NCBI GenBank assembly: GCA_963681505.1
Contig: OY811971.1
Coordinates: 8,985,991-9,049,990 of the forward strand
DNA: 64,000 nt
Direction: 5' to 3'
DNA from: Eunapius fragilis
Taxonomy: Eukaryota > Porifera > Demospongiae > Spongillida > Spongillidae
The notes beneath the pieces are model-generated. The model saw nothing but the letters and a program-made list of their open reading frames with translations, ran no database searches and had not been told where the DNA came from. Positions 7,268 through 20,000 of the stretch are shown here, piece by piece (the stretch's first letter is position 1; the number at the start of each line of letters is the position of its first letter). The translations under genes were made by a program, and so were the position numbers.

Positions 7268-10200
7268 ATGGACTCACATTATCTTTTATTATCGGAGGAC
7301 TATCTCATCGAACTTTTTGCGAAGTTTGAAAAGATGAGAAATTCTCTTTCGCTTTGCGACATAACTATTAGAATTGACGATAAGGTATTCCATGCACACA
7401 GAGTGGTCCTAGCAGCCTCTAGTGCATACTTCGAGGCTATGTTTACCTCAGGCATGGTAGAGTCGAGAAATTCAGAAGTAAAGCTTAGCGGGGTGGAACC
7501 CTCAGCGTTCGAGGCTATCCTGGATTTCGTCTACACCGCCAAGGTTAAAAATCTGTGCAAAGAGAACATCCAGGCCATTCTATCAGCGGCAAGCATGCTG
7601 CATATCCACCGCCTCAAACTGGAGTGTGCCAAATATCTGGAGCGCTACGTATCTCCGTCAAACTGTCTCGGAATCAAAGCATTTGCGGAAGGTCATGGCT
7701 GTGACGACCTTGCGCGATGCGCTATGACCTGCGCGTGCACGCAATTTGATGAGGTAGCCGCAAGCGAAGAGTTTCTGCTGCTACCCGCCGAGCAGCTGGT
7801 GGAGATAATAAGCAGCGATATGCTCAAGACCAGCTCAGAGGAAGACGTGTTTGACGCGTTGTGCCGGTGGGTGGAGTGTGACCATGGAAACAGAGCACCG
7901 TGCTTTGCAGCCTGCTTTCGCCACGTGCGTCTGCCCCTGATGTCACGGGTGTGCCTCGCCGATAAAGTAAGGACCAACAGACTGGTGCAGAGCAGCTTGG
8001 AGTGCAGGGACTGGCTAGACGAGGTTCTCATATCCTACCATCTTATACCAGAGAGGAGGCCCAACATTCCACTGCAGCACACCCGGCCTAGGACACCTGC
8101 TGTTCACATGTGTGCCATCTATGCTATCGGTGGGCTGAGCTCTGTTGAAGGAATGCAACCTTCTGTGGAAAGGTGTGTTTTTTTGGGTTTGGGGGGGGGG
8201 GGGGGGGGGGCAAACGGCGGATCCAGCATATTTTAGGCTCATCAAATATGGGCCCATGCCCGTAATTGCCCAGTGTTGATGAGCCTAACATATGCCTGGA
8301 TCTGCCACTTGGGGGGAGGGGATTTGTAGTGGTTCCTGAAGGCCAGGGTATTTGGATGAAAATGTTCATTGCATTTTGTGGTAAGAAAACAGTAGCACAA
8401 TACGCATGGCAAATGGGAAGTACATATTAATATGTGCATCGGTGGTTGTGCTTGTGAAGCCTGTTGTGTACACATTTGGGACCTTGTACAAATACACTGT
8501 ACTTATGGTCAATCCGAATGTCCGTACTTGTGTGGGTGGGGTGGATTAACAATGGCTCATCCCCCCCCCCCACCCATAAGTAGTACCAAATTACGTGCTT
8601 AGTCTTGACACCTGATGTGTATACAATATGTTATATCATTCACTGTTGTGTGCAGGTATGACACTTCAAAGGCCACGTGGGGGCTGTCCAAAGCAATGCA
8701 CACTACACGCAGCAGGGCCGGTGTTGCCTCTGGGAGTGGTGGAAAGCTGTACTGCATTGGAGGGTTCGATGGCGTGTCAAGGCTGTCCACTGTGGAGTGC
8801 TACGATCCTGTTACTGACGAGTGGAGCGCGATGTCTCCAATGATGACCAAGAGAAGTGCATTGGCCGTCGCCACAGTAGGAGAAGAGCTATACGTGATTG
8901 GCGGCTATGATGGAGCTGCTTCTCTCTCTTCTGTGGAAATGTATGTACTAGGTGATGTGGTCCATGTTTATCCCTCCCACACCCCTCCCTACCCACACCT
9001 GTTGTCCGTAACAAGAGAGTTCTGTTCTGTACCTTTTGGCTCCTCATATCTGTTATGTCCTGCTTGGTGGGGAGGTGAGGTTGGGAGATTACAATTGTGC
9101 ACTGCTTTCATTGAGCCTTGTTATAGTTTACTATACTGGCATGTAGTACAAGTCATTATAAGAGATCAAACTGCGCAGTACGTTTGCTTTTAAACAAACA
9201 ATGCTAGCTGATCTATTCACTATGCTCCACACTCTGTACACAAAATTTGCTTTGACTTACGTGTCATGACCCAATCCTAAAAGAACCTGCCAGTACTGTT
9301 AGATATGTCTAGATCCATTCAATGACCAAACGGTGCTATGCACCTCCCCCCCCCCCCCCCCCTCCTCGTCCGACCACTTGGATGACATTCAAACCAATCA
9401 ACATTAATGAATGAGTTTTTTTTCCCAACGTTTTAGCTTTTGATAACCACTCTTGCAGCTACAACATAGCCACAGACACATGGAGACACGGGATACCAAT
9501 GCACACCAGACGTAGTGCTGCAGCTGTTGCGGCTACCCAGGACTCCATATATGTAGTCGGTACATGCCCACCCCCTCATTACCATGCTCCCAGTGTGGAT
9601 CAAACGTTACCTCATCCCATTAGGTGGCCATGATGGGTCTTCCATCTTCAGCACAGCCGAGCAGTACAGCCTCCATACCCACACGTGGAGGATGCTACCT
9701 TCCATGCACAGCAGGAGATGTCGCCTGGGCGTCGTGGCCTGCTCTGGATTGCTGTTCAGGTAGTGTTGGCTTCTTGTACGTAACACCATGTGGTGGGTGG
9801 GTGTATGTACTGTGCACCACTTGTCGTCCCCCCCCCCCCCCCCCTTCCCCATAATAGCATTGGTGGATATGATGGGTCGGCTTTCCTGAAGACTGTCGAA
9901 TCTTACAACCCTGTGACGGAGCAGTGGACGAATATACAGCCAATGAACTGTTGTCGAAGTATGTGAGCAGTACCGTTTGTATAGAATTGCAGGTACATCT
10001 AAAGGCCTATATGGCTTTGTACGTGTGTATAGAAACAAACATAAGATAACATTTTTAAAAACATTTTTAAATTCTTGAGCTGTTGTCCAAATAACGTATC
10101 TGAACCACTTACATGTACATCATGTGATAATAACCAATAATCCATCTACATGAACCTATGTAATTACCTGTAAGTCCATTGGTTTAATTGTAGGTCACAT

Positions 10201-10387
10201 GTATTTTTTTGCAGGTAGGTTGGGTGTGGTCGCTGTATTTGATCAGATCTTTGCTATTGGCGGCGTTGATGGATCGTCAAACTTGAGCACTGTAGAAGTG
10301 TACAGCATAGAGAGGCAGTGCTGGAGCAGTGGGCCTCCAATGAGATACCACTGTGGTGGCATCAGTGTCGCCCTCACCAGCTGCTGA
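7268..10387 (+). CDS. KLHL18: BTB-BACK-Kelch protein, KLHL18-like
   Basis: Six exons: 7268-8172, 8656-8940, 9459-9559, 9624-9759, 9858-9958 and 10215-10387 (stop TGA), giving 566 residues, close to vertebrate KLHL18 (about 574). The BTB domain lies around residues 20-125 (LCDITIRI...FHAHRVVLAA). The BACK domain follows, from about 130 to 235. Six Kelch blades each carry the GG doublet and the spaced Y/W pair (for example VIGGYDG and VGGHDG). The linker YHLIPERRPN...TRPR and blade 4 with its KRC/RRC turn resemble KLHL18 most among the KLHL proteins I know. KLHL proteins are substrate adaptors of CUL3-RING ubiquitin ligases. The chosen ATG is 80 bp after the upstream gene's stop; an in-frame upstream ATG at 7199 would add an implausible T-tract-coded leader. 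The ortholog call is from memory of motifs and could be a close paralog. Confidence 0.8.
8217..8307. repeat. Short foldback in KLHL18 intron 1
   Basis: Arms 8217-8246 and about 8276-8307 are imperfect inverted repeats (GGCGGATCCAG... against ...CTGGATCTGCC). They lie directly after a G homopolymer (about 8190-8210). The end motif GGCGGATCCAG resembles hAT-type MITE termini. It is probably a decayed non-autonomous element. Confidence 0.6.
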
Positions 10388-10982
10388 TCATGCAGTCCGC
10401 TGAGCACCAACCAAATGGCACCAATGGATGCATCAGTAGAGAAAAGTGCTGCACAATGACATCATCGCATCACAGGAGCATAACAGCAGGCAGCACACTT
10501 CCAATTGAATATTTGTACAAGAGCGCACATATATTTATGAATGATCAGACATCTACTTCTGTATACTAGTAGATGTACATGTAGATTTACGTAAATATTT
10601 TGCGAGGAACAGTGAACTGTATTTCATGGTTCCGATATAAGCTCGCCCGTACGAGTATCCTTCATCCTAGGGCAATTACACACATCGGTGCAAAGCAACT
10701 TCTTCGACCTGGCGGTTTGCATTGATTGTATCATGATATATGATTCTTATGATTAGTTAAGTTTGTGTGTAGGACCTGAAATGGCTCTGCCTCATGTAGG
10801 TTTACCGTTATATCCCAAAATAGCAATGAATTTATGTAAGCCCCTTGGGAAATCGATGAAGTCATCGGTTAACACACGGACACGCAGGCGGGGCTGCGGA
10901 TGGTACGATGAACCATGTGACCTTGAGCTGGACGAATGGCACGTGATGTAACATTTTAACACGTCATCAGGTCCTAGCAGAG
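10388..10982 (+). other. Intergenic: KLHL18 3' UTR and upstream region of the Ser-Gly protein gene
   Basis: No exon was recognised. A 62-codon frame at 10763-10951 has no recognisable family and no splice partner. The segment should contain the KLHL18 3' end and the promoter of the following gene, but neither a clear AATAAA nor a TATA box stands out. Confidence 0.5.
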
Positions 10983-13401
10983 ATGTACTGCATGTCGCTG
11001 TGTTATGCAGTGCTGCTGACGAGGCTCGTCTTTGTCCTGTCGCGATCAGTTGCAGCTGAGGGGCAGATATGTTCGGGCGCCAAATATGTGTACTGTCAGA
11101 ATATTTATGCTGAAAACAATTGCGCCGTGCAGCAACAGCCGCAGCCCATTGATTGCAAAGCCTGCGCTGGGGTCTTGGAGTGTGCCCAGCCTGCGCTCAA
11201 TCCCTGCGATGACGTAGAAGAGAGAGGCCATTGCGCTGCACTGAAGAATGCGGCGCCGTGCACGGAAGGGGACGATGACCTGAGCTGCGTCGCTTGCACG
11301 TTTTATGAGGACTACTGCAAAGCGAAGGAGAGCAGTGTTTGTGCGGACTCCATGGCGCATGACCTCTGCAGCTACGTACCAGTTTACGAGGAATGTATGT
11401 TGAGGTTTAGTTACGCAACTTGCCAGTTCTGTCGCAATTTTAAATCTGCCTGCGGTGTGGTGGCGGGAAATATGAAGCACCGCTGCTCTGACGTGTCTGA
11501 GATTCGGCTATGCAAGAGTACTCTCAGTGGAAGCATGTGCAGTACGTGGAATGAAGTGTGTGATTTCTGTACTATTTTATTAGGAGTCTGCAGTAGTAAG
11601 TCAGAAGATCGTAGTAGTAGTGGTAGTGGCAGTGGTGATGGTAGTGGAAGTGGCAGTGGTGATGGTAGTGGAAGTGGCAGTGGTGATGGTAGTGGCAGTG
11701 GTGATGGTAGTGGAAGTGGTGATGGTAGTGGAAGTGGTGATGGTAGTGGAAGTGGTGATGGTAGTGGCAGTGGTGATGGTAGTGGCAGTGGTGATGGTAG
11801 TGGAAGTGGTGATGGTAGTGGCAGTGGTGATGGTAGTGGAAGTGGTGATGGTAGTGGCAGTGGTGATGGTAGTGGAAGTGGTGATGGTAGTGGTAGTGGT
11901 GATGGTAAATCTAAACAATCACCATTGCAAGATCTCTGTCTTGAGCAGATACCCCAAGACCTTTGCTCTCATAGTATCGTATTTGATGAGAAGTGTGCTT
12001 TGTTCTTAAGTGCGGACACTTGTAAATTTTGCAAGTACTTCACAAGTGAGTGCGGGCCCCCAGTTGGCAGCATTTTAAGCCATTGTGGTGACCACACTGA
12101 AATATCCATGTGTGCAACCACTGTGTTGAATATGAGCTGCACAACTTTTGGTGATTCCTTTTGTGACTACTGCAAACTTTTGCTTGAGGTTTGCACCTCC
12201 AAAGCACCTACTGTCAACACTGAGAGCAAACCTGAAACTGCATCCTCCGGATCTGATACAAATTCCATTTCAGTACCAGTTTCTGCTGCAGATATACAAT
12301 CGAAATCCGGTGGGCAGCACGTGCCTTCTCACTCAATACAGGTAATATACAGTGCATCGGTACCTCATATGTCCCTGTTGATGATGTTACCTTTCTATCC
12401 GTTAGGCCTCTGCCCTTGTTCATGTTTCCAATCTCACTGATGAGCAGGCAGACAACTGTGCCTCAATACTGTTCTCTGGCCTCACTGTAAGTCTATATGT
12501 GGAGAATTGTGAGAGGTCATGAAGCATTGTTGGCAGTACTGATAATAGCCATACAATTATCATACATAACCATGTGAAGGAAACCTTGGGATTGTGTGTG
12601 CACTGTACTGACTTTGCATTATGTTGTTGGCTTCACTAGTTTTGGGATGGAGCATACATGTATATAGAGCACCTTTTCTCTGAGCAGGTGGATTTAAAAT
12701 GTTTGTCTTGATGTGCAATGTTTGCTCCATTGGCAGAGGGCTCAGTTCCTAGCAGTGGTGCAAAGCTTTCATGACAGCGTTGGTGCTGCACTGGGATATC
12801 AAAAGCCTGGCACAAGGGGGAACAAAAGAGATGTACAGAAAGGTTCTGTCGTGATAGTAGCGCCATCACCTTACAAGTACCCTAATGGAACAATGACGGT
12901 GGTGATATTTGTCACAAAACAAGATGGATCAGTTTTGGAAGGAAAGGCTTTGGCTTTTGCTGTAGAAGAATCCAAACATTACATTGCGGCCAAGGTATGT
13001 ATAAAATGCACACAGGTGTACATATGTGCACAGGATTATGGCAGCATAGCAAGGCATTGTAAAGCGTTAACTGGTCTCATCAATATCAGGTTGGAGCTAA
13101 GGAGATTGTTCTGGTGTTTCAAGGGATCCCAAGTAGCCTTCAGAGTGATACTCGTGAATCATCCAGTATGCTTGGTGAATATGGAATGTGCTGCTTTGCA
13201 GTATTAGCATTTGGGATTATGGTTATGGCAACCATAGCAGCTGGAGCAGCTATGTACATTCGCAGGAAGAAGCACTATGATGTCTGTGCAGTAAACCACA
13301 CATACAAGCCACTTTTCATACCTGCTGATGGTAAAGTGTATCCACAGCTTATTCATATTCAGGTTGATCACAAAGATGATGTGAACAAAATCTACAGTTA
13401 G
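10983..13401 (+). CDS. Cys-rich type I membrane protein with long Ser-Gly-Asp repeat (candidate proteoglycan core)
   Basis: Four exons, all phase 0: 10983-12341, 12406-12486, 12737-12994 and 13090-13401 (stop TAG), coding 669 residues. A hydrophobic N-terminus ([14 protein letters not shown]) fits a signal peptide. Next come cysteine-rich modules of roughly 90-100 residues: one at about 25-110, one at about 110-208, and a clearly matching one at about 312-405, with the last two flanking a linker of about 15 SGSGDG-type units (about 210-310). After a Ser/Thr-rich stretch, a non-repeated domain (about 455-585) leads to a single membrane span (about 600-622), a stop-transfer IRRKK and a tail of about 45 residues. 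Ser-Gly dipeptides next to acidic residues are the known attachment context for glycosaminoglycan chains, so a cell-surface proteoglycan role is inferred. I recognise no named family. Confidence 0.75.
11608..11907 (+). repeat. In-frame coding minisatellite encoding SGSGDG units
   Basis: About 15 tandem units: the first few are 24 nt (SGSGSGDG), followed by about a dozen of 18 nt (SGSGDG). Third-position changes (GGA/GGC/GGT) vary between units while the amino acids are constant. The unit length is always a multiple of three, so copy-number change keeps frame. The antisense strand gives an unbroken Thr/Ile frame that is only a shadow. Confidence 0.95.
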
Positions 13402-13814
13402 GGGTTTTATAAAACCTGCAGGATGCATGTATTTGTAATGTGACACAATTATGGTTCTTGTGTAAATTTCGGATATAATTTCTATAAACCTTGACCTACA
13501 TCGTTTACTTGCCAAACAGTTGGTGGCTTCCCTATATGAATAATGCATGTACATGTAGTTATTCACCCAGCAGCTGGTGATTCAGTGCGAACAGCGCCCA
13601 CGCCTTTCTATTACATTGGTACAGTTATGAAATTACATACATTGGTACATTTTGAATCAGCTTTTGCAATGTGGTGTGTAGGAGGATAGGAAGCGAATCA
13701 CTGCGCAATACCTTCGCTCTACCCTTTCTATGAAAAATGTACGGCGGTGCGCTGTAGGCCTACTTCTCCTGGATTTATCATACTCACTGGATTAGCTGCC
13801 ATCAATATTTGCAT

Positions 13815-14375
13815 ACAAGAACTTGGTAGTCTAGCAGATTGGTCACATGCTTGTACAAGACTACGAGGTCATATGATCATGAGTTCGATTCCACATCAGT
13901 TTTTTTTTCTTTTTAGTACATTAAGGGTAAATGTACTGTTGTTGAGGTATAGGTTCCAATCGCAAGATAGTGCAATCTGGCATAGTGGGTTACGATGAGA
14001 GCTATCATGCTCGAGGTACCGTGTTCAAGGTCCGGGGTCCATCGGATTTCCTCCCCATCGTCGTTTATCCATCCACTACTCCGGATTGTGCGGCATCATA
14101 TCACCTGCTCTAGTCTTCGACTTCCGAAGTGGAAAAAGCTTACTTCAAGGTGATGACGTCACTTCTAGCTGGTTTCTGTTGACTTGGTAGTGTCACTCAA
14201 TAGAAATTCTCCACAGAGAAACAGTTAGTTGAGGCGATTCATCGCTTTCCCTTCGCTTGTGTCAAGTGTACGTACGGTGCTGTCTTTTTTATTAAGAAAA
14301 GTTATTTTTAAACTGACTTAGTTCATGTTTTTCCTGCATAATATTTTTGAATATTTTTTCAAGTTTGTTTTGAAT
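13815..14375 (+). repeat. Interspersed repeat copy A with tRNA-like box B
   Basis: Shares the whole order of blocks with the copies at 16030 and 18285: box-B-like GAGTTCGATTCC (13881-13892), the block GAGCTATCATGCTCGAGG, the block GTCCATCGGATTTCCTCC, and the 3' block TTGAGGCGATTCATCGCTTT. Its box A region is degenerate. The 3' end is abutted by a LINE fragment. Confidence 0.75.
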
Positions 14376-14395
14376 ATTTTTCTAGTAACTATAAG

Positions 14396-15550
14396 GTCAA
14401 CAAGCCCAGTTGTGCTTGAGTAGAGGTGGTCTTGGACTCCGCAGCTTATCCCAGCATTCAGCAGCAGCATATGTAGCTTCCTTTGCAGTGTCAGGCTATG
14501 CAACCAACACAAGCCACCATCTTCTCCAATCAATAGATTGCTTTAATAGCGTGGTTTCTCCAGCTGATGTAACTTCTACTGATGAATTGCTGACTTCACC
14601 CATAAATCAGAAGGAGCTTTCTAGTAGGATTGAACATAGTCAGTTTCATGCACTCTTTGAGTCCTCTTCACTGCCAAATAGGGCACGGCTATTATCAGTC
14701 GCATCCCCTCATGCTGCTTTGTGGCTTTCAGTTGTGCCATCTCCTGGACTCAACCTACATCTGGAATCTGCAGAGTTCCAAACTGCAATAAAATGGTGGC
14801 TTGGGATTGACCTATTCAGTGGGGAGAAATGCCCTTGTTGTCTTACCTTGTCATTAGATCCCTTGGGTCACCATGCCCATGCATTAACTTGTCGATATAA
14901 TGGTGACGTGGTCTCTCGCCATAATAGGGTTCGGGATAGTTTTTTCGAGTCTTGTAGGCAGGCGTGTATTGGTGGCCAAATGGAAGTTGGAAGTGGTTTG
15001 GGACATGATGCCCGACGTACAAGGCCAGCTGACGTGCTTGTTCCTAATTGGGTTCTGGGAAAACCTGCAGCTTTTGACATAACTGTCACATCACCGCTTA
15101 CTCCAATTACTCTACATGAAGCGAGTGTGACAAGTGGGTCAACAGCTCAGGTGGCTGAGAACAGAAAACATGCCAGCAATGACACCAAGTGCTCAGAGCT
15201 TGGATGGGTGTGTGTACCTTTGGCAGTTGAGGTATATGGATGTTGGGGTCCTGAAGCACAGACAAACCTTTCTCAACTTGCAGCGCGCCTGGCAATTAGA
15301 TTAAATTGTTGCAAGTCCCAGGCCACTTCGGCTCTATATGGCAGGTTAAACCTGGTTCTAGTTAGAGCGAATGCCAGAGCTCTGCTGTCCCGTTCAATGG
15401 CAACTGGATGTTAGTCTCCTCACCTTCTCCGTTCCAGTGTATTGTTCTTTGTTTAGTAACATTGTGTAACTTAAAACTGTAAATGTTGTATATGGAGTAT
15501 ATCATTAATAACAGTACATATAATATTTAACCACACACAATACAAACAAT
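14396..15550 (+). mobile_element. 5'-truncated LINE, family A, with C-terminal restriction-like endonuclease
   Basis: An open frame of 334 codons (14410-15414) continues the C-terminal third of a non-LTR retrotransposon polyprotein. It starts in the conserved SRGGLGLRS block that follows the RT thumb, then has a Cys/His finger (CPCC...GHH...C) and the RPADVLVPNW...FDITV block typical of PD-(D/E)XK-type endonucleases of early-branching LINEs. The frame has no stops, so the copy is fairly recent although truncated. About 140 bp of AT-rich 3' sequence follows the stop. A relic of the same family lies at 58890-60130 and 63040-63290. It is not host coding sequence. Confidence 0.8.
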
Positions 15551-15555
15551 TACAC

Positions 15556-15770
15556 CACAGCTTTCTCATAATATTCAGGTTGATCACAAAGATGATGTGA
15601 ACAAAATCTACAGCTAGTGGTCTTATAAAACCAGCAGGATGCATGTATTTGTTTGTGACACAATTATGGTTCTTGTGTAAATTTCGTATATTATTTCTAT
15701 AAACCTTGCCTTCATGTACATCGTTCTATTAAAACTTAATACTTTCCAAACGGTTGTTGGCTATGTTAAT
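15556..15770 (+). pseudogene. Duplicate of the last codons and 3' UTR of the Ser-Gly protein gene
   Basis: Bases from about 15556 closely match 13342-13530. The match includes the last 14 codons ([13 protein letters not shown] plus stop, TAG in both copies) and the following UTR with a few substitutions and short indels. No upstream exon accompanies it, so it is a 3'-end duplicate. Together with the repeat that follows each copy, it marks a segmental duplication of about 1 kb. Confidence 0.85.
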
Positions 15771-16029: not shown

Positions 16030-16665
16030 TAATATTCGCATGTGGTCAAGCAGATTGGTCTCATGCTTGTGTCTACGAGGTGATATGATCATGAGTTCGA
16101 TTCCACGTCAATACAGTTTTTTTTTTTCTTTTTATATCCCTTTAAAATTAAGGGTACTGTTGTTGATAAATCGGTTCCAATCGCATTATTTCAAGCTAGT
16201 GCAGTCTGGTTTAGTTGGTTACGACGAGAGCTATCATGCTCGAGGTACCGTGTTCAAGGCTCAAGGCCCGGGGTCCATCGGATTTCCTCCCCATCGTCGT
16301 ATATTAACTAATCCGGATTGTGCGGCAGCATATCACCGGTTCTAGTCTTCGACTTCCGAAGTGGAAAAAGCTTACTTCAAGATGATCACGTCACTTCTAG
16401 CTGGTTACTGTTGACTTGGTAAGGTGATCACGTCACTTCTAGCTGGTTACTGTTGACTTGGTAGTGTCACTCAATAGAAATTCTCCACAGAGAAACAGTT
16501 AGTTGAGGCGATTCATCACTTTCCCTTCGCTTGTGTTAAGTGTAGGGTGCTGCCATTTTTATGGAAAATCCATTATTTTTATACAGGCTTTAAAAATAAA
16601 AATTTTAATGCATGTTGTAGTTTCTCCTGCGGAGTTTTTTCACCTTTGTTTTGTTGACAAGAATA
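16030..16665 (+). repeat. Interspersed repeat copy B with tRNA-like boxes A and B
   Basis: TGGTCAAGCAG at 16043-16053 fits the RNA polymerase III box A consensus TRGYNNARNNG exactly. GAGTTCGATTCC at 16093-16104 is close to box B. The boxes are about 50 bp apart, within the range of tRNA genes with a long variable arm. A T-rich run follows box B. The remaining roughly 500 bp match copies A and C, with one internal duplication of about 55 bp near 16380-16460. A tRNA-derived SINE head fused to a long body is the best reading. Confidence 0.75.
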
Positions 16666-16718: not shown

Positions 16719-16950
16719 AATAGACAACTTCACGATCTGATTATTTTGTACTCCGGATGTGATGTCACCTAGTCACTACGAAGAAGTCCGTTGTTGTCTC
16801 TTTGTTGTCTCTAGCTTTTACTGGGCCTCATATAGTTACATCGTTGTGGGGCCCAATAAAAAAAGCTAGAGACAACAACGGACTTCTTCGTAGTGTCTAG
16901 GTGACATCACATCCGGAGTACAAAATAATCAGATCGTGAAGTTGTCTATT
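16719..16950. mobile_element. Foldback element with ~95 bp arms
   Basis: Arms running inward from 16719 and 16950 are near-perfect reverse complements over about 95 bp, apart from an extra tandem copy of TTGTTGTCTCT on the left and a few small differences. The centre is short (about 30 bp). There is no coding capacity. It is probably a MITE; superfamily unknown. Confidence 0.85.
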
Positions 16951-17345: not shown

Positions 17346-18284
17346 CTCAGGAACATATTTAGGATTGCCGCGTGATCGATCATCCCGCCCTGCCTATTTG
17401 TGCCCTACCTTGATCCTTCTTCCTGAATAACTTTGGTATCCTAGTCGCATTATAGAACACATGAAATTATTTATTTTTTCATAGACTACGCAATGATATA
17501 AGTGGGGGCTACGAAGGGAATGATACGGAAGCTATACAAACGTTAATTCTAAGGCACAGTTCGAGAGCTGCCGTGACTTATAACGAAGTGAGATTTGAGG
17601 GCGTATTGCTTGCGGCTATGTATACTACAGTCAGCAAACTGGGATAGGTTTTTGTTGGATCCGGCAGTGCAGCCGCAGATGCCACGATATTTTATATATG
17701 GGTACGCATTATACGGCAGCGTGTATGGCCGAACACTACACAGCACAAAAACTCGTCGAATCAATTCTTGATTTGTCAATTGCTTTACTACCTGCTCCGG
17801 CCTGCTGAATTATTGAATTATATTTCCATCCATCTATCTCCGTCCAAAGTTCCATGAGTCTTTTCTCCGTAGATCCCATGCACGTTTGTATCGCGGTATG
17901 ACCAAAGCATTTCGCATGTGTAAATGATCCGCCCAGCCCGAATAGTATTTTACCGCGAAAGCTTATACCTTTTTCCGTAGGAGTATTTTTGACGGCGCGC
18001 GGGGGGGGGGAGATAGTATTCACCACTGTATACGATATCTCCCCTGGCCCTGCCCTACAGCATGAGCACGGTTATGCGTTGGTTCTTTATAGTCGCCGCC
18101 ACAACAACGCAGTCTCTAATTTGGTATTCAAGTATGCTGCATTAATAATTATACCGCCTATAAAATATCTCTCGATATTTCGCGGCAGCACTGGATATAT
18201 AGCTGCCGCTGTAACGTACTGCTATCCATGCTACTATACTATAGATACATAAGACTGAGGGTAATATTTGCACACAAAAAATGA
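17346..18284. other. Intergenic stretch, nothing recognised
   Basis: Minus-strand frames of 76 and 96 codons (17549-17779 and 17736-18026) overlap one another and resemble no family I know. No repeat partner was found elsewhere in the window. Confidence 0.4.
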
Positions 18285-18527
18285 TGGTCAAGCAGATTGG
18301 TCTCATGCTTGTGGCTACGGGGTTATATCACTTATATGATCTTGAGTTCGATACCACATCAATACAGTTTTTATATCCTTTAAATTAAGGGTTGAAGTTT
18401 AGCTTCCAAACGAGTCATTTCAAGCTAGTGCACGCAGTCTGCCTTAGTTGGTTACGACGAGAGCTATCATGCTCGAGGTACCGTGTTCAAGGCCCGGGGT
18501 CCATCGGATTTCCTCCCGTCGAATCCG
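18285..18527 (+). repeat. Interspersed repeat copy C, 5' half, split by a transposon
   Basis: Box A TGGTCAAGCAG (18285-18295) and a box-B-like GAGTTCGATACC (18344-18355) are followed by the same body as copies A and B. The copy breaks off after TCCGGATTATC and resumes at about 19750 as ATTATCGGTTCTAGTC, as expected if the 1.2 kb element between them inserted into it. Confidence 0.75.
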
Positions 18528-18589
18528 GATTATCACTAGTCTCGTTCCCAGACCACACCCGCAGCTGCGGATGGCGCTACGCTAGAAGT

Positions 18590-18904
18590 TAGTTGGGCGT
18601 AGCCCGACCTTCGCGTATTGGCGGAAGGTCGGGTACCAAACCCGCACAGGTTTTGTACAAGCTGCAACGGGGATTGCAGTCCAATCAGAATGCAGCATTT
18701 CACTGCGGGCAATTATCGCCCAATAAATATACTCTGCGCAGCTGGTAGTAAAGCCAACACTTAATTTATAAAATTATTCATTGATCCCGATTGTATAACA
18801 CGCCAAAATTCATTGACAAATTGCATAATACGTCTGTACAAAACCTGTGCGGGTTTGGTACCCGACCTTCCGCCAATACGCGAAGGTCGGGCTACGCCCA
18901 ACTA
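18590..18904. mobile_element. Nested MITE with identical 68-69 bp TIRs and 9 bp target duplication
   Basis: Arms 18591-18658 and 18836-18903 are perfect reverse complements over 68 bp, extended by T/A to 69. The element is flanked by GCTAGAAGT at 18581-18589 and again at 18905-18913, a 9 bp target duplication. Each arm also folds on itself (CCCGACCTTC...GAAGGTCGGG). Long identical TIRs with a 9 bp duplication are typical of Mutator-like elements. The internal 177 bp has no coding capacity. Confidence 0.9.
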
Positions 18905-19001
18905 GCTAGAAGTGGTCTGGGAAACTGGCTAACAAAATTGGTTCTATGCCCGGCCATTTCTAGGATAATTAGGTAATAGATTTGATTGAGCTGTTAATAG
19001 T

Positions 19002-19756: not shown

Positions 19757-20000
19757 GTTCTAGTCTTCGGCTTCCGAAGTGGTGACGTCACTAATAGCTG
19801 GTTTCTGTTTACTTGGTAGTGTCACTCAACAGAAATTCTCCACAGAGAAACAGTTAGTTGAGGCGATTCATAACTTTCCCTTCGCTTGTGTCAAGTGTAG
19901 GGTGCTGTCTTTTGGAAGGAAAACAATTATACTGATTTTAAAAATTAGTGCATGTTGTTTCTCCTGCAGAGTATTTTTCTTGCTTGTTTTGTTGTTGTGG
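19757..20000 (+). repeat. Interspersed repeat copy C, 3' half
   Basis: Matches the 3' blocks of copies A and B: CTAGTCTTCGGCTTCCGAAGTGG, the TTGACTTGG/TTTACTTGG stretch, CACAGAGAAACAGTTAGTTG, and the tail TTTCTCCTGCAGAGTATTTTT. A further short echo (GGCGATTCATCACTTTCCCTT) lies near 20138-20165. Confidence 0.7.

Follow-up and report, generated by a model that had tools for sequence, protein, structure and literature searches.

The window, a stretch of 64,000 nucleotides from the demosponge Eunapius fragilis, carries on its forward strand at 10983-13401 a four-exon gene model with a predicted product of 669 amino acids. The start codon at 10983 lies in a reading frame that opens at 10947, just past a stop, and spans 10947-12440, and the last base of the stop codon is 13401; the span given in a preliminary description of this locus was right to the base. 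The introns measure 64, 250 and 95 bases, and all are GT-AG and phase 0. Several splice alternatives are open at this locus, and the present model was preferred for its AG acceptors and for introns that are phase 0 throughout. The exons are:

10983-12341, + strand: exon 1, residues 1-453; open frame with a GT donor after 12341, encoding the N-terminus, six Cys units, the Ser-Gly block and a linker
12406-12486, + strand: exon 2, residues 454-480; here the membrane-proximal region begins
12737-12994, + strand: exon 3, residues 481-566; membrane-proximal region
13090-13401, + strand: exon 4, residues 567-669 and the stop, as given by the splice model

Just upstream and on the same strand, frames encoding Kelch repeats occupy 8609-10387, the first and last of which were confirmed in Pfam. 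Downstream of the gene lies a dispersed local repeat (13804-14348, 16042-16656, 18263-18517 and 19779-19994; aligned pieces 73-91% identical), together with an open frame of 339 amino acids at 14395-15414 that has no Pfam match and by eye looks like the tail region of a protein from a retroelement, and two near-perfect inverted repeats (16719-16950 and 18587-18907, with arms of 83 and 73 nt, 99% identical). The last coding bases of the gene, its stop and its 3' flank (13342-13501) recur at 15555-15715 with 91% identity, a partial duplication without the remaining gene. A scan for bacterial promoters and terminators 3' of the stop was uninformative.

In the predicted protein a signal-like N-terminus is followed by Cys-rich modules A and B, a Ser-Gly block, module C, a linker, the membrane-proximal region encoded by exons 2 to 4, a membrane span and a tail. 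The signal-like start, Cys modules on both sides of a Ser-Gly block, one span and a basic-led tail had all been described before, and each of them is present. Of the 42 cysteines in the product, 36 fall within six repeated units:

10983-11057, + strand: likely signal peptide, residues 1-25 (...SVAA/EG); N-terminal hydropathy 1.9, cleavage placed by eye
11070-11183, + strand: six-Cys unit 1, module A, Cys 30-67
11205-11318, + strand: six-Cys unit 2, module A, Cys 75-112
11340-11453, + strand: six-Cys unit 3, module B, Cys 120-157
11484-11591, + strand: six-Cys unit 4, module B, Cys 168-203
11613-11906, + strand: Ser-Gly-Asp block, residues 211-308; 98 residues with 15 SGSGDG units and 14 DGSG sites, an 18-nt minisatellite
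11937-12053, + strand: six-Cys unit 5, module C, Cys 319-357
12084-12194, + strand: six-Cys unit 6, module C, Cys 368-404; helical by prediction, with pLDDT averaging 63-82 per block
13189-13260, + strand: single membrane span, residues ~600-623; hydropathy maximum, borders placed by eye
13261-13398, + strand: tail of 46 amino acids beginning RRKK, with two YxxPhi motifs (YKPL at 638, YPQL at 650)

The hydropathy maximum of 2.39 (19-residue window) falls at residue 599, and the fit of the N-terminus and the span to the secretory route was judged by hydropathy alone. For the membrane-proximal region, a SEA domain was sought: Pfam gave no match in the protein, and exon 3 folded by itself at a mean pLDDT of 48.4, as a low-confidence helix followed by strands.

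The units follow the spacing C-x7-9-C-x8-9-C-x6-10-C-x2-C-x5-6-C, which occurs four times before the Ser-Gly block and twice after it. The repeated Cys modules mentioned in the preliminary description are in this respect more regular than had been claimed, being one unit used six times. When the two Cys regions were shuffled 20,000 times, 19,636 shuffles contained no unit, 364 contained one and none contained two, compared to six in the real protein, the pattern having been written post hoc after viewing the sequence. Between modules B and C identity is 39%, at E 5e-15 with one as query and 1e-13 with the other. Over 94 codons they share 39 identical residues, 25 of which are encoded by different codons, and keep the cysteines at 12 of 12 positions; their differences number 38, 40 and 71 at codon positions 1, 2 and 3, respectively. 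Because of this excess at third positions, the kept cysteines and the differing codons behind identical residues, the codon comparison indicates that modules B and C are an old duplication under purifying selection.

Searches for relatives of the protein returned no Pfam family above cut-off over its whole length. The N-terminal modules gave nothing in Pfam up to E 10, and module C gave only Thioredoxin_2 at E 1.9. TrAA12 (E 2.4e-5, 23.3 bits against a cut-off of 30.9, residues 259-310) and CFAP143 (E 0.036, below cut-off, residues 255-330) were rejected as low-complexity matching, the former lying within the Ser-Gly block and the latter mostly so. NCBIfam, searched with the two Cys regions only, produced one match at E 1.4. 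Among PDB sequences the C-terminal part and the module profile found none, and the best matches of module C and of the unit profile had E values of 0.2 and 0.24. A search of the Cys module, proposed at the outset for metazoan and sponge proteomes, was run here on Pfam, NCBIfam and PDB sequences and gave no significant match to any secreted family. The host genome (218,937,333 bases in 24 contigs) was searched with module C and with the C-terminal part. Apart from itself and module B, module C matched only two places by chance; these weak matches on contig C7 (E 0.54 and 1.5) sit in a simple tandem array and were set aside as not being paralogues. The C-terminal part found itself and the short duplicated tail. 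Bacterial and archaeal contigs contained 23 stretches with the pattern and viral contigs 32, with no relative confirmed among them. For the possibly lineage-specific family of the preliminary description, the search space thus comprised Pfam, NCBIfam and PDB sequences, these contig collections and the host genome.

Folding module C with AlphaFold from an alignment of the three modules gave a mean pLDDT of 55.6, with only the second unit at useful confidence (helices at residues 63-74, 78-81 and 83-97 of the folded piece). With this model Foldseek returned a single match at E 9.5, and VIA, limited to that one Foldseek chain, returned none. The fold prediction suggested beforehand has yielded a helical second unit of module C, with the rest at low confidence and no solved fold matched. 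Relative to the libraries used (Pfam, NCBIfam and PDB sequences) the Cys module is unrecognised.

The Ser-Gly block had been put at about 15 SGSGDG units and more than 30 Ser-Gly dipeptides; we counted 15 units, and 38 dipeptides in the protein, 33 of them within residues 211-308. An acidic residue lies no more than four residues N-terminal in 30 of the 38 dipeptides. The motif E/D-G/A-S-G, reported as a chondroitin attachment motif of C. elegans (PMC8418075), is present in the block in 14 exact copies, compared to a mean of 0.25 (maximum 3) in 5,000 shuffles of the whole protein and a mean of 1.3 (maximum 6) in 5,000 shuffles of the block, and the same review describes attachment motifs by themselves as ambiguous (PMC8418075). 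On the DNA level the 18-nt units are near-identical, the 15 of them differing at a single Gly wobble base only, and serine is encoded by AGT in 35 of 35 codons in the block versus 14 of 60 elsewhere in the gene. Because of this uniform codon choice and the near-identity of the units, the block is, by its codons, a recent minisatellite expansion.

A two-unit pattern from the block, allowing up to three mismatches, finds 51 matches in the genome, of which 14 lie in the gene and 37 outside it, and a reversed control pattern finds 20; with zero mismatches, all 12 places are within the gene. We inspected five of the other GGT/AGT arrays, and those on C22, C13 and C14 appear non-coding by eye. The array on C10 (L043:3531-4184) lies in a frame that starts like a signal peptide, encodes GSGGGDG repeats and has no Pfam match; this frame is possibly a second Ser-Gly core. 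The frame around the C18 array encodes GGGSGD repeats, and its end looks ordinary.

We then turned to the glycosaminoglycan enzymes of the host. The C-terminal domain of XylT gave two matches, both over cut-off and both on C11, the second of which crosses a stop that is possibly an intron mark, and an exon piece near these matches corresponds to xylosyltransferase 1 in PDB (E 2.6e-21). Two Fam20 matches over cut-off lie on C13, and a frame upstream of them matches glycosaminoglycan xylosylkinase in PDB (E 1e-11). Over cut-off were furthermore 21 of 24 GT43, 8 of 8 GT64, 5 of 5 Sulfotransfer_2 and 12 of 13 PF05679 matches, those of GT43 and PF05679 being assigned to the family level and not to individual enzyme roles. 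Six of the PF05679 matches are long frames of 463-572 amino acids, one of which was compared with PDB and found chondroitin sulfate synthase 3 at E 5.8e-48 and synthase 2 at E 8e-29; another was confirmed in Pfam. These six chondroitin-synthase-family frames (L024, L046 and L047) are each open over most of the profile, and four are on C20. None of 14 control genomes had a match over cut-off for these enzyme families. The enzyme searches covered the C-terminal domain of XylT, Fam20, GT43, GT64, Sulfotransfer_2 and PF05679. As far as its genes show, the host is probably able to put chains on the protein.

Taken together, we read the gene product as a single-pass cell-surface protein whose most likely role, which we rate as an even chance, would be that of a proteoglycan core, perhaps a part-time one. 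For this reading speak the reading frames, the splice sites, the six Cys units, the purifying selection on modules B and C, the 14 motifs and the enzyme genes; against it stand the youth of the block, the similar GGT/AGT arrays at 37 of 51 places outside the gene, the ambiguity of motifs by themselves (PMC8418075) and two accounts, one denying glycosaminoglycans to marine sponges (PMC5050403) and one setting sponge glycans structurally apart (PMC5865150). The proteoglycan that the preliminary description had proposed fits the glycosaminoglycan-initiation and chondroitin-family genes of the host and the 14 attachment motifs, but its Ser-Gly block is a young minisatellite on which long-term selection is not evident. 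On the molecular level, the protein would enter the secretory pathway and its cysteines would pair up; a sponge xylosyltransferase could prime several DGSG serines in the block, on which chondroitin-family enzymes would build chondroitin-type chains or a sponge variant of them. The charged block would then keep module C apart from modules A and B, the Cys modules may bind the matrix or a partner on the cell surface or a neighbouring cell (the binding-head idea being a guess), and the basic tail with its two YxxPhi motifs, which we take to be anchoring and recycling signals, would hold the protein in place and return it.

An alternative that we consider a real possibility, at rather less than an even chance, is that the SGSGDG block is a flexible, unglycanated spacer, an in-frame minisatellite in the linker between modules of an ordinary Cys-module receptor or adhesin. 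It would account for the near-identical 18-nt units with their invariant AGT codons, for the position of the block between modules and for the GGT/AGT arrays elsewhere, three of the five inspected looking non-coding by eye, and an expansion encoding Gly, Ser and Asp would be tolerated. The zero-mismatch pattern is, however, unique to the gene (12 of 12), and the spacing of Asp yields 14 motifs that fit the attachment consensus exactly, in a membrane protein whose host genome encodes XylT. Since the spacer explains the young repeat equally well, we hold the proteoglycan core at about an even chance. A further point concerns the acidic context: according to a preprint, chondroitin addition is influenced by clustered acidic residues and by a Trp close by (PMC13405426), and the block, with its Asp spaced every six residues and no Trp, would by this measure argue against efficient addition.

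The serines might instead carry another modification, either phosphate or an acidic glycan peculiar to sponges and attached through some other linkage, which we regard as improbable. Sponge glycans are reported to be unlike classical chondroitin and heparan (PMC5865150, PMC10971851), but the genome contains homologues of xylosyltransferase and xylosylkinase, and one of these reports itself suggests fucosylated chondroitin sulphate for the main fraction (PMC10971851). That the gene model is wrong, or that the gene is decaying, we consider very improbable: the model is predicted from genomic sequence, and the 161-nt copy of the 3' end (91%) indicates that the locus has been rearranged, yet four GT-AG, phase 0 exons yield a full frame with a signal-like start, a span and a tail, and the differences between modules are strongly biased to third codon positions.

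The proteoglycan core can be compared with known cores. Chitin-binding domains, which in CPG-1 and CPG-2 of C. elegans are presumably of the peritrophin-A type, were not found in the sponge protein (Pfam, N-terminal modules up to E 10). CPG-1 and CPG-2 are described as cores with multiple putative chondroitin sites plus chitin-binding modules (PMC5603424). The sponge protein likewise combines putative sites with modules, but CPG-1 and CPG-2 are secreted, whereas it has a span and no Pfam family above cut-off. Glypican domain PF01153 had no match in the sponge protein (Pfam), which also has a membrane span and a basic tail. Syndecans are single-pass proteoglycans with Ser-Gly sites in an acidic context and a short basic-led tail, and the sponge protein resembles them in its predicted type I orientation, its sites and its tail; it differs in that syndecan domain PF01034 has no match in it up to E 10. 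In the whole host genome PF01034 had none up to E 1, a search that had no positive control and that a short, intron-split domain could escape. Serglycin shares the long run of Ser-Gly dipeptides but has, to our knowledge, no Cys modules of this kind and no membrane span, and the sponge protein differs from it in these and in its Asp every six residues. Sponge aggregation-factor proteoglycans, with their Calx-beta/Wreath architecture and acidic glycans, are likewise glycoproteins of the surface or matrix, but no Pfam domain above cut-off is present here.

Whether sponges make glycosaminoglycans is unsettled in the literature, one account denying it and others finding enzymes or a chondroitin-like polysaccharide. 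Marine sponges are said to produce none (PMC5050403); elsewhere sponge glycans are called structurally distinct, with the enzymes present in Amphimedon (PMC5865150), and EXT1-, EXT2- and EXTL3-like proteins are reported from the same sponge (PMC9178029). Work of 2024 on a marine sponge suggests, as a preliminary result, fucosylated chondroitin sulphate for the main fraction and finds that sponge glycans differ from classical chains (PMC10971851). Among the open-licence papers listed on sponge glycosaminoglycan enzymes and core proteins, none mentions in its title or abstract opening a comparable Ser-Gly core protein from a sponge. The glypican GPC6 is counted among the core metazoan genes (PMC3789837), and sponges may therefore have conventional cores in addition to this protein. 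A named candidate acceptor and XylT and chondroitin-synthase-family genes in one genome allow a direct test at the peptide level. More specifically, and as a conjecture that we think rather unlikely, demosponge chondroitin-type chains would sit on a membrane core of an uncatalogued six-Cys family, with the block growing and shrinking as a minisatellite; chain number could then vary between individuals through minisatellite length.

The genome searches yielded a further observation. Contig C24 (28,504 bases) is mitochondrial, with the best match to a COX1 peptide and genes for 23 different tRNAs over the 25,000 bases scanned; read with code 4 it contains cox2, atp8, atp6, cox3, cob, atp9 and nad frames, named by eye. 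COX1-like pieces on the nuclear contig C9 (L018, L019) are 87% identical to the COX1 query peptide and are probably nuclear copies of mitochondrial DNA.
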